The notes under the pieces are model-generated. The model was not told where the DNA came from. It saw only the letters and a list, made by a program, of their open reading frames with translations, and made no database searches. From NCBI RefSeq assembly GCF_019049855.1, contig NZ_JAHLSY010000010.1, positions 1-64,000 of the forward strand: DNA of 64,000 bases. The letters are read 5' to 3'. Shown here in pieces: positions 23,427 to 41,543 of the stretch. The translations under genes were made by a program, and so were the position numbers. The stretch's first letter is position 1, and each line of letters opens with the position of its first letter. Source of the DNA: Hydrogenophilus thiooxidans (GTDB lineage: Bacteria > Pseudomonadota > Gammaproteobacteria > Burkholderiales > Rhodocyclaceae).

Positions 23427-24395
23427 TCACCAACGCAGAAGCGCAGCACCCCAGGTAAAACCGCCACCGATCCCTTCGAGCAGCACCGTTTGACCGGGCA
23501 GGATCTGCCCCGCCTGCACCGCATCGCACAACGCAAGCGGTATCGACGCCGCCGAGGTATTGCCGTGCTGCTGCACGGTGGTCAGTACCCGCGAAAAAGG
23601 CACCTCAAGACGCTTCGCCGTCGCCTCCAAAATACGGATATTGGCTTGATGGGGCACCAACCAGTCGAGCCGATCGGGAGTCATCTGCGCCGCTTCGAGC
23701 ACTTCCAGCGCAACGTCGGCAAGCGACTGCACGGCAAATTTGAATACCGCCTGACCCTGCATCCGGACGAACGGATCTCCCGTCACTTGGCCATGCGCAG
23801 TCTGGCCCGGAACACAGAGAAGGTGGCGGTAGCGTCCGTCGGCGTGCAATTTCGTCGCCAAAATACCGGGCGCGTCGCTCGCTTCGAGCAGCACCGCACC
23901 CGCCCCGTCGCCGAAGAGCACGCAGGTCGTGCGGTCACGCCAATCCAGAATACGGGAGAAGATTTCGGCGCCGATCACCAACGCGCGCTGCGCAGCGCCC
24001 AATCGTATAAATTGGTCGGCCAACGTCAACGCATAGACGAAACCGGTACACACCGCTTGGACGTCGAATGCCGGCGAACCGTTGGTAATCCCCAGTTTGT
24101 CCTGCACGATCGTCGCGGTGCTCGGAAAAATCATGTCGGGCGTTGAAGTCGCCAGAACGATCAGCTCCACGTCGTTCGGCTGCCAACCTGCGGTGGCAAG
24201 CGCCTGCTGCGCCGCAACAACCGCCAGATCGCTCGTCTGCTCGTCGTCGGCAGCAAAATGGCGGGTGATGATCCCGGAACGTGTGCGGATCCACTCGTCT
24301 GACGTATCGACCCCACGCGCAACGAGCTCCTCGTTGGTAACGGGAGCCCCGGGAAGGTACCCACCCACTGCGACGAGCCGAGAATAGCGGGCCAT
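23427..24395 (-). CDS. fabH: Beta-ketoacyl-ACP synthase III
   Basis: Starts fatty-acid synthesis by condensing acetyl-CoA with malonyl-ACP. It has 322 aa from [20 protein letters not shown]. The catalytic Cys is in [12 protein letters not shown] (about 115), His in VPHQANIRI (about 249) and Asn in [12 protein letters not shown] (about 279). AAAGGGGAG lies just before the ATG; an ATG 15 nt upstream overlaps the plsX stop. Confidence 0.97.
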
Positions 24396-38501: not shown

Positions 38502-40112
38502 TTGACCGAACTGGCGACCCCCTCCGCCCCTTGGCTCGCGCTTGCTGGCGGGTTGGGCTTTTTCTTGCTGGGTCTCGAGCTCCTCACCGACGGCCTTCGC
38601 CTGGCCGCAGGTCCCAACCTCCAGCGCCTGCTCAGTCGTGCAACCGATACCCGGTGGCGTGGACTCGGTACCGGCATCCTCATCACCGCGCTCGTCCAAT
38701 CGTCGTCGCTCGTCACGTTTGCCACGATCGGCTTTGTCAATGCCGGGTTGCTCACCCTTCACCAATCCCTATGGGTCATCTTTGGCGCCAACATCGGCAC
38801 GACTGTCACCGGCTGGCTCGTCACCTTGGTTGGCTTCGAGTGGGCGCTCGAATCGTGGGCGTTGCCGCTTGTTGCAATCGGCGCGTTTTTCCACCTGACC
38901 GGCAAGAGCAGCCGCCGTGGCGCGCTGGGGTTGGCGTTGGCTGGCTTCGGTCTGCTGATCACCGCGATCGATCTTCTCAAGAGTGGTTTGGGCGGTGCTG
39001 CAGCGCACGTGACACTACCCATCGGTGACGGACCGCTTCTGCTCATGGCGCAAACCGGCGCTGGGTTTGTACTCACCCTTCTCCTCTTCTCCTCGAGTGC
39101 CGCCACGGCGCTCATCCTCACCGCAATCCACAGCGGCCTCATCGACCTCTCGAGCGCCGCCGCGATGGTGATCGGCGCGAACCTCGGCACCAGCGTCAAA
39201 GCCTTCCTGGCCGCAATCGGCGCAACGGCGAACGCCAAACGCGCCGCAGCCGCCCACATCCTCTTCAACACCCTTACCGCAGTAGTCGCATTCCTCATCC
39301 TCCCTGCCCTGGTTACCGTGACCACCGCGCTCACTGCGTGGAGCGGAGCCGAACGCGACCCTGCGATCGCGATCGCGCTATTCCACACCCTGTTCAACGT
39401 CCTGGGTGTCGTTCTGATCTGGCCACTCGCCAACCCGATGGCCGCTTGGCTGCAACGTCACTTCCGTACGCGCGAAGAAGACGAAGCGCAACCCCGCTAC
39501 CTCGACCACACGCTCGTCACCATCCCTGACCTGGCACTCTCTGCGCTCCAACACGAACTGGTGCGTCTGCGCGACATGGCCTCAGCGATCCTCGAACGGG
39601 CGATCGTCGGAACCGTACCCGACCCAACCGCGGTCCATGCGGTGCGAACCCTCACCCACGCAATCGCCCGCTTCATCGCCGCAATGAACCAAGGAACGCT
39701 CACACCGCAATTGATCGACACCAGCGAACGGCTCTTGCGTGTGGCTCGCTACTATGAAAGCGCGGCGCGGTTTGCCGAAGAGGGTGCGCACGCTTGGGGC
39801 GAATACGACGAACGCGACCCGTCCGTGATGGCCGCATGGGAACGCTTTCGCACCGCGGCGCTGGCGCTGCTGCCCACCGCCACCCATGCACCCCTCGAAG
39901 CGGCCGGGCCATCAGACGACGCCATGGAAGCCGCGTACCAAAACCTCAAAGCCGCGCTCCTGACCGCCGGCAGCCGTGCAGCGCTCTCCATCGCCGCAAT
40001 GGACGCGCAACTGCGCGCAACAAGCGCGATCCACCGTGGTCTGCAACAACTACGCAAAGGCATCACGCGCACACCCCCACCCCTCACACCGCAAAAAACG
40101 CCACATACCTGA
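38502..40112 (+). CDS. Na/Pi cotransporter family protein with PhoU-like C-terminus
   Basis: A 536-aa protein. The N-terminal ~320 residues are multi-pass membrane with two inverted repeats marked by ITALVQSSSLVTFATIGFVN (QSSS motif) and LFSSSAATALILTA, as in NptA/YjbB phosphate transporters. From about 345 the protein is soluble and helical, resembling PhoU (LALSALQHELVRLRDMASAI). The start codon is TTG at 38502 with a weak upstream site. It follows rraA by a 27-bp gap. Phosphate export or uptake direction is not predictable. Confidence 0.88.
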   Translation: MTELATPSAPWLALAGGLGFFLLGLELLTDGLRLAAGPNLQRLLSRATDTRWRGLGTGILITALVQSSSLVTFATIGFVNAGLLTLHQSLWVIFGANIGTTVTGWLVTLVGFEWALESWALPLVAIGAFFHLTGKSSRRGALGLALAGFGLLITAIDLLKSGLGGAAAHVTLPIGDGPLLLMAQTGAGFVLTLLLFSSSAATALILTAIHSGLIDLSSAAAMVIGANLGTSVKAFLAAIGATANAKRAAAAHILFNTLTAVVAFLILPALVTVTTALTAWSGAERDPAIAIALFHTLFNVLGVVLIWPLANPMAAWLQRHFRTREEDEAQPRYLDHTLVTIPDLALSALQHELVRLRDMASAILERAIVGTVPDPTAVHAVRTLTHAIARFIAAMNQGTLTPQLIDTSERLLRVARYYESAARFAEEGAHAWGEYDERDPSVMAAWERFRTAALALLPTATHAPLEAAGPSDDAMEAAYQNLKAALLTAGSRAALSIAAMDAQLRATSAIHRGLQQLRKGITRTPPPLTPQKTPHT

Positions 40113-40157
40113 CCCAACCGCACACGTTCTCGACTTCGCGCGTTTTTGTCTCTTATG

Positions 40158-40169
40158 TCTTATATAAGA
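40158..40169 (+). promoter_or_regulatory. Perfect palindrome upstream of aceA (operator candidate)
   Basis: TCTTATATAAGA is a perfect 12-bp palindrome ending 3 bp before the aceA -35 box, with a further TCTTAT half-site at 40151-40156. AT-rich dyads of this kind are typical GntR-family or similar operators. The regulator is not in this window. Confidence 0.5.
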
Positions 40170-40172
40170 TAC

Positions 40173-40201
40173 TTGACGCGGCGCAACAAGCACGGTATCA
40201 T
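40173..40201 (+). promoter_or_regulatory. aceA promoter
   Basis: TTGACG (40173-40178), 17-bp spacer, TATCAT (40196-40201). The leader is about 40 nt and ends with GAAAGGACG before the aceA ATG. Confidence 0.8.
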
Positions 40202-40247
40202 CAATCCCGTCGCCACTTGGCACATTCGTAACCGAAAGGACGCAATC

Positions 40248-41543
40248 ATGGACCGTCAACAGCAGATCGAAGCGATCAAAAAAGATTGGGCCGAAAACCC
40301 GCGCTGGAAAGGGATCACCCGCACCTACACCGCCGAAGACGTCGTGCGTCTGCGCGGTTCGGTGACACCGGAATACACCTTCGCGCGCATGGGCGCAGAA
40401 AAACTCTGGAAATTGCTCCACACTGAGCCCTACATCAACGCGCTCGGGGCGCTCACCGGCGGCCAAGCCATGCAACAGGTCAAAGCCGGGATCAAAGCGA
40501 TTTACCTCTCCGGCTGGCAAGTTGCCGCGGACAACAACGAATACCGCGCGATGTACCCCGACCAGTCGCTCTACCCGGTGAACTCGGTGCCGGTGGTCGT
40601 CGAACGCATCAACAACGCGTTCAAACGTGCCGACGAGATCCAATGGGCCAAAGGGCTCAACCCAGGTGACGAAGGGTGGATCGACTATTTTGCCCCGATC
40701 GTCGCCGACGCCGAAGCGGGTTTCGGAGGCGTACTCAACGCCTTCGAACTGATGAAGGCCATGATCCGTGCGGGCGCCGCTGGGGTGCACTTCGAAGACC
40801 AGCTCGCAAGCGTCAAGAAGTGCGGCCACATGGGCGGGAAAGTGCTCGTTCCCACCTCTGAAGCGGTGCAGAAACTGATCGCCGCGCGGCTGGCTGCGGA
40901 CGTCTGCGGCGTGCCCACGCTGGTGATCGCGCGTACCGACGCCGAAGCCGCTGATCTGCTCACCTCGGACCACGACGAATACGACAAACCGTTCCTCACC
41001 GGCGAGCGCACCGCCGAAGGGTTCTACCGCACCAAGAAGGGTCTCGAGCAAGCGGTGGCGCGCGCACTCGCCTACGCGCCGTACGCCGACCTCGTCTGGT
41101 GTGAAACCGGTACGCCCGACCTCGAATTCGCGAAAAAATTCGCCGAAGCGGTCCATGCCAAGTTCCCCGGCAAGATGCTCGCGTACAACTGCTCGCCGTC
41201 GTTCAACTGGAAGAAGAACCTCGACGACGCCACGATCGCCAAATTCCAACGCGAACTCGGCGCGATGGGGTACAAATTCCAGTTCATCACGCTTGCCGGT
41301 GTCCACAGCATGTGGTACAACATGTTCGACCTGGCGTACGATTACGTGCGTCGCGGCATGAGCGCCTACGTCGAGAAAGTGCAAGAGCCCGAATTCGCGG
41401 CCCGCGAACGCGGTTACACCTTCGTCGCCCACCAGGCCGAAGTGGGTACCGGTTACTTCGACGACGTCACCACGGTCATCCAAGGGGGTCAGTCGAGCGT
41501 CACCGCGCTCACCGGTTCCACCGAAGAAGAGCAGTTCCACTGA
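40248..41543 (+). CDS. aceA: Isocitrate lyase
   Basis: Cleaves isocitrate to glyoxylate and succinate in the glyoxylate shunt, allowing growth on acetate or other C2 units. It has 431 aa from [20 protein letters not shown]. The signature KKCGHMGGK with the catalytic Cys is at about 190-198, and the metal-binding segment is [13 protein letters not shown]. The length is that of bacterial class-I ICL. It stands alone with its own promoter and a strong terminator; malate synthase is not adjacent. Confidence 0.98.

Follow-up and report, generated by a model that had tools for sequence, protein, structure and literature searches.

A palindrome abutting the aceA promoter of Hydrogenophilus thiooxidans as a putative operator of the GntR-type regulator SdhR

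Introduction

Among described elements, the closest counterpart of the one studied here is the operator of SdhR, a regulator of the citric acid cycle that belongs to the HutC subfamily of the GntR family and has received little study. The available portion of PMC4494728, whose account of SdhR is one of comparative genomics and cites Suvorova et al. (2012, J Bacteriol 194:3234) as its source, gives the motif as TCTTATGTCTTATATAAGACATAAGA. The full operator printed there consists of four boxes, two inner ones forming a palindrome and two outer ones. Section 17 of the same text describes extra, weaker boxes near GntR-family palindromes generally, at 7–12 nt from the palindrome centre. In the literature searched, this was the only paper carrying the 12-mer palindrome considered below. 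As far as the accessible text of PMC5343134 goes, the PdhR and PsrA regulons of the Shewanellaceae resemble this system in that one regulator presides over sdh, gltA, and ace genes; however, PdhR is another GntR-family protein, PsrA belongs to the TetR family, and the hosts are gammaproteobacteria.

A second regulator of relevance is PhaR, a sensor of stored carbon, for which excerpts of PMC12849132 give the motif YTKNTGCRNYGCANMAR in Ralstonia eutropha, with up to 3 mismatches accepted. According to the accessible part of PMC12542648, binding at the sdhC promoter was reported for the PhaR of Sinorhizobium meliloti (AniA/PhaR), a putative site of this protein lies at gltA, and PhaR module 1 includes an isocitrate lyase-family protein.

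Here, we describe the promoter region of aceA within a 64,000-nucleotide stretch of the Hydrogenophilus thiooxidans genome (positions 1 to 64,000 of contig NZ_JAHLSY010000010.1), hereafter the window. In comparison with the SdhR operator as printed in the available portion of PMC4494728, the core palindrome TCTTATATAAGA, the 5′ outer box, and the G spacer of the aceA site are identical to TCTTATGTCTTATATAAGACATAAGA over 19 contiguous bases. The difference lies at the other end, where the 3′ outer box is missing and TACTTGA, which enters the −35 box, stands instead. A manual count gave 4 mismatches to the printed 26-mer.

Results

Architecture of the aceA promoter region

By direct reading, positions 40151–40201 run TCTTAT-G-TCTTATATAAGA-TAC-TTGACG-N17-TATCAT. 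The outer half-site TCTTAT (40151–40156, forward strand) repeats the core half directly in a 7-bp register and is separated by a single G (40157) from the core palindrome (40158–40169, without strand), an exact 12-mer that we assign as an SdhR operator from its motif identity and conservation. After 3 bp (TAC), the core is followed by the −35 box TTGACG (40173–40178) and, across a 17-bp spacer, the −10 box TATCAT (40196–40201) of a predicted forward-strand promoter. This sigma-70 promoter, with 10 of 12 consensus matches (shuffles averaged 0.2), was the sole one in a scan of 40080–40300. The sequence and the promoter scan confirmed the original observation that TCTTAT and a 12-bp palindrome end 3 bp before the −35 box of the aceA promoter.

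The aceA start codon lies at 40248, 46 bp past the −10 box, and the gene (40248–41543, forward strand) encodes an isocitrate lyase of 431 aa. Two NCBIfam equivalogs for isocitrate lyase gave this identity, both scoring above cut-off (813.6 and 660.6 bits), and Pfam agrees. The upstream neighbour (38502–40112) resembles, by sequence reading, a Na/Pi-cotransporter-type membrane protein. A repeat search over 40100–40260 reported nothing. When plasmids were searched with the aceA region, the best 20 of 68 records matched only from query base 354 onward, which is coding sequence, and plasmids therefore provided no promoter comparison.

The motif and its regulator in the genome

A search of the window for the 12-mer, allowing up to 2 mismatches, gave a single occurrence where 0.14 would be expected. 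Across the 2.31-Mb genome, two exact places and one with a single mismatch were found when 1 mismatch was allowed, and the reversed control gave none. The 19-mer composite of the core and one outer box, at up to 3 mismatches, marked these same three loci, against none for the reversed control: aceA (0 mismatches), the intergenic region between mdh and sdhR(-sdhCDAB) (1 mismatch, in both directions), and the stretch preceding acnB (1 mismatch). The identity of AcnB is backed by three Pfam domains, and the two other genomes of the genus, as well as G025, have the acnB site too. When the bare 12-mer was relaxed to 2 mismatches, it scored 9 places and the control 7, which means that the signal is drowned, so we make no claim beyond the three loci.

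The element had been proposed as the operator of an unlinked regulator of the glyoxylate shunt, of GntR or IclR type, that is not encoded nearby. This reading is supported: over the 19 bases there is no difference from the printed motif of SdhR, a GntR-family protein, and an sdhR orthologue lies on a contig different from that of aceA. The encoded protein (241 aa) carries Pfam GntR (78.0 bits) and UTRA (102.4 bits) domains; the best match to its sequence in the PDB was 3cnv (E = 3.6e-39), a putative GntR-family regulator represented by its ligand-domain part. The sdhR gene, which has its own operator, is located between the divergent mdh and sdhC, sdhD, sdhA, and sdhB, the last three named by sequence reading. 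In G002, a genome of the same genus, the aceA and sdhR sites are about 242 kb apart on one contig.

Conservation and co-occurrence with SdhR

Absence of the motif from orthologous aceA promoters and other cycle genes would have spoken against an operator; we checked for it and found the opposite. In 53 of 80 aceA loci, the 300 bp upstream contained a core that matched at 11 or more of the 12 positions, while none of 400 shuffled upstream regions reached 11. Sites also precede sdhR-sdhCDAB/mdh and acnB, and icd, aceB, and sucC each have one in a single relative. The 27 aceA loci without the core came from Pseudomonas and other gammaproteobacteria, and also from Chitinimonas, Parachitinimonas, Aquitalea, and a Neisseriaceae bin.

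In a set of 61 genomes (60 relatives and our own), we considered whether the palindrome is no more than an UP element of the promoter or a dyad that arose there by chance. It is AT-rich and located where the polymerase alpha subunits bind, but the exact 12-mer occurred 81 times, in 44 genomes, against 4 times for the control, and it is tied to SdhR and to citric acid and glyoxylate cycle genes, which leaves this explanation highly improbable. Chance origin of the motif was ruled out by the controls for the 12-mer and the 19-mer in our own genome and for the exact core in the 61 genomes.

An SdhR-like protein was found in 52 of the 61 genomes at E < 1e-35, a cut chosen after inspection of the list. 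The exact core was present in 44 of these 52 genomes and in 0 of the 9 without SdhR (Fisher p = 1.4e-6, a nominal value because the genomes are related), and it preceded sdhR in 39 of the 44 core-bearing genomes. These two results also bear on the alternative that a different regulator, of IclR type or another GntR paralogue, shares the motif. Relatives do encode several GntR paralogues, yet the location of the core before sdhR itself and its absence from all genomes without SdhR make a different regulator very improbable.

Eight of the 52 genomes with an SdhR-like protein have no exact core, and in two of these (G041 and G048) that protein may be a paralogue. Seventeen genomes have no exact core, and 9 of them carry an aceA gene. 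Where SdhR is also missing (three of the 9), the best core match before aceA was 7, 7, and 8 of 12, and in the six with SdhR it was 11, 11, 11, 10, 9, and 8 of 12. In G058 and G018, relatives with SdhR, the aceA core is reduced to 8–9 of 12.

We examined 70 regions, which cover 73 of the 79 exact sites outside our own genome. They comprised 26 aceA promoters, 35 sdhR promoters, 34 of which pair with mdh (the exception being L123), and 9 regions elsewhere: icd, aceB, and sucC once each, ATP synthase operons three times, and three unexplained. Six further sites are in G037, G050, and G057. Five of them were examined (aceA 1, sdhR 3, dctP-like 1), and the sixth is one of three G050 sites.

Outer boxes

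Outer boxes were counted at cores of at least 11/12 with a box of at least 5/6, giving 103 aceA sites in 83 loci. A 5′ box only was found in 39, a 3′ box only in 36, both in 1, and neither in 27, so that 75 sites were one-sided. The 35 sdhR sites were distributed as both in 9, 5′ only in 15, 3′ only in 4, and neither in 7. Our own aceA site has an exact 5′ box, and its 3′ box matches at 3 of 6 positions. By the taxon labels of the records, the 5′ form belongs mostly to Rhodocyclaceae-type loci and the 3′ form to Comamonadaceae-type and Polynucleobacter loci. The extra box, 10 bp from palindrome centre to box centre at our site, resembles the additional GntR-family half-sites described in the available portion of PMC4494728; it differs from them in being nearly always one-sided at aceA, on a side that depends on the lineage.

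Position of the core relative to the promoter

In our own aceA promoter, the core spans −50 to −39 from the predicted start, with its centre at −44.5. Among the best 14 of 78 predicted aceA promoters, the centre was at −44.5 in 12, −45.5 in 1, and +10.5 in 1. In the 14 of 32 mdh promoters listed, it was at −52.5 to −56.5, and the predicted start-to-ATG distances were 44 to 121 bp. Position classes were based on the best-scoring promoter anywhere in 260 bp, and these predictions are uneven. On this basis, the 106 aceA sites fell at −60 to −36 (48), in the core promoter (21), beyond +10 (33), and further upstream (4), and 28 of 32 mdh sites fell at −60 to −36. The 39 sdhR sites were found beyond +10 (16), in the core promoter (15), at −60 to −36 (6), and further upstream (2). 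Four acnB sites were divided equally between the core promoter and positions beyond +10; our own acnB site is at +19.5.

We also measured the spacing between the gene-proximal core and the best −35 box near it. In aceA this was 9.5–10.5 bp in 43 of 83 loci, a set that is partly selected, since some loci were included for holding the core; in 12 of the 83, the core centre lay 13.5–15.5 bp inside the −35 start, and the remainder were scattered. In mdh the spacing was 17.5–20.5 bp in 29 of 35 cases, including 17 at 19.5 bp. The aceA and mdh spacing modes differ by one helical turn; spacing can also be preserved by common ancestry. Comamonadaceae-type aceA loci often contain a second core, located some 30 bp downstream. 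In about 16 two-core aceA loci, sequence reading placed this second core just before a TAGAAT-like −10 box, and thus inside the promoter.

A PhaR-type palindrome on the −35 box

A recurring TTGCTGC...GCAA beside the core was spotted first and was compared with the printed PhaR motif afterwards. In our own promoter, the 17-bp palindrome TTGACGCGGCGCAACAA (40173–40189, without strand) starts at the −35 box, which it overlaps, and has one mismatch to YTKNTGCRNYGCANMAR. When one mismatch was allowed, 21 of the 83 distinct aceA promoters that have an SdhR core contained a match, where permuted palindromes gave 0.2; when two were allowed, 46 did, where permuted palindromes gave 4.4. These matches are not independent because the loci are related. 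Measured from the core start, 18 of the 46 were at +14 to +16, 15 at −96 to −98, and 13 elsewhere. Within the genus, the site is kept in G002 (L147), and the G001 promoter (L145) is absent from the matches.

PhaR is encoded in our own genome (PF07879, 104.1 bits). The exact PhaR motif was found there in 8 places, against 1 in the control; by sequence reading, single copies precede a phaB-like, an enoyl-CoA hydratase-like, and a formate/nitrite-transporter-like ORF, and 5 are inside reading frames. An exact copy at 24204–24220 of the window, inside a fabH-like reading frame, is probably due to chance. The aceA promoter likely carries a second site, a candidate for binding PhaR. It shares the palindrome with the PhaR operators described in the accessible parts of PMC12849132 and PMC12542648, and it differs from them in lying on the aceA −35 box and adjoining an SdhR operator. 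Among the matches listed, no paper tied PhaR to a betaproteobacterial aceA, and the excerpts of PMC12849132 make no such mention.

ATP synthase operons and other sites

Regions upstream of atpB were surveyed at 59 loci from 58 of the 61 genomes, taking one best place per genome and two in G014; the other 3 genomes had no atpB match. An SdhR core precedes the ATP synthase operon in 6 of the 58 genomes, three times exactly (L121, L129, and L149, from G038, G033, and G026, with the site at 1201) and three times with 11/12 (L259, L267, and L284). The three exact sites had prompted the survey. All six sites lie 537–626 bp before the atpB Pfam match. Six further atpB loci reached 10/12; permuted palindromes gave 0.1 at 11 and 1.35 at 10. 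Each of the three exact sites is followed by atpI, identified twice by Pfam and once by sequence reading. The ATP synthase operon of our own genome has no site (best match below 9/12). Since the sites are found in only 6 of 58 genomes and not in ours, the operon is, as judged from sequence, a minority target.

Several other sites were observed. In L123 and L233 (G052 and G050), sdhR is divergent from a gene of the PEP-mutase/isocitrate-lyase superfamily, possibly prpB, which replaces mdh, with the operator between them. In L232 (G050), an exact SdhR core (1201–1212) lies directly before a DctP-type (TRAP transport) gene, and in L230 a core site lies beside a Crp/Fnr-like ORF. L119, L126, and L182 hold exact cores (site at 1201) without a recognised citric acid cycle gene adjoining, a number that fits chance (4 control sites in 61 genomes).

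Discussion

The motif identity, the presence of the regulator, the conservation, and the co-occurrence lead us to conclude, with a probability of roughly 0.9, that the palindrome and its extra half-site form an operator of SdhR, the HutC-type GntR/UTRA regulator whose gene stands next to mdh and sdhCDAB in another part of the genome. The operator and the regulator type have already been described, and the aceA site is a new instance, although Suvorova et al. (2012) may already list aceA.

As to the mode of action, we lean towards blockage of a strong promoter, because a near-consensus promoter has the core 3 bp from its −35 box, and because two-core loci have a core inside the promoter. Position as proof of repression was dropped, as −44.5 fits both signs. 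SdhR could instead activate aceA, and mdh with it, from the same operator by contacting RNA polymerase upstream of −35, while repressing its own operon. We consider this doubtful. The GntR-family protein FadR activates fabA and sets a precedent, and a core centred at −44.5, here and in most of the best-scoring aceA promoters, suits a class II activator; promoters this near to consensus, however, should make an activator needless, and in the two-core aceA promoters one core would sit inside the promoter. The mdh core, about 10 bp further upstream, would be on the same helix face, although the predicted start-to-ATG distance varies among the listed mdh promoters. The −35 spacing is fixed in many promoters of both genes, but it could reflect common ancestry and takes other values in 40 of the 83 aceA promoters.

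In the repressive mechanism that we favour, an SdhR dimer would bind the core at −50 to −39, a further SdhR subunit would occupy the outer box, and the bound protein would cover the −35 region, shutting the near-consensus aceA promoter. The sdhR-sdhCDAB operon and acnB would be held shut along with aceA, until SdhR is released by a ligand that binds its UTRA domain and probably is an intermediate of the citric acid or glyoxylate cycle. We propose this chain, as a whole, with moderate confidence. Through the PhaR-type site on the −35 box, polyhydroxybutyrate storage probably provides a second input.

More tentatively, and at somewhat less than even odds, betaproteobacterial aceA promoters may be two-input gates. 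SdhR would report the state of the cycle through a one-sided, three-box operator, acting from a fixed helical face that is displaced by one turn between aceA and mdh, and in some genomes it would also act on the ATP synthase operon. PhaR would report stored polyhydroxybutyrate from a fixed offset, on the −35 box in our own lineage and, in a different one, at about 97 bp upstream of the core.

For the central metabolism of H. thiooxidans, these results point to one regulator with few sites (mdh/sdhR-sdhCDAB, aceA, and acnB). The PhaR overlap, the core-to-−35 spacing, and the ATP synthase sites are fresh leads, and the metabolite sensed by SdhR and the joint gating of isocitrate lyase by PhaR (stored polymer) and SdhR (cycle state) have become testable. 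If the two-input reading is true, SdhR would, in some genomes, couple carbon entry to energy conversion via the ATP synthase operon.
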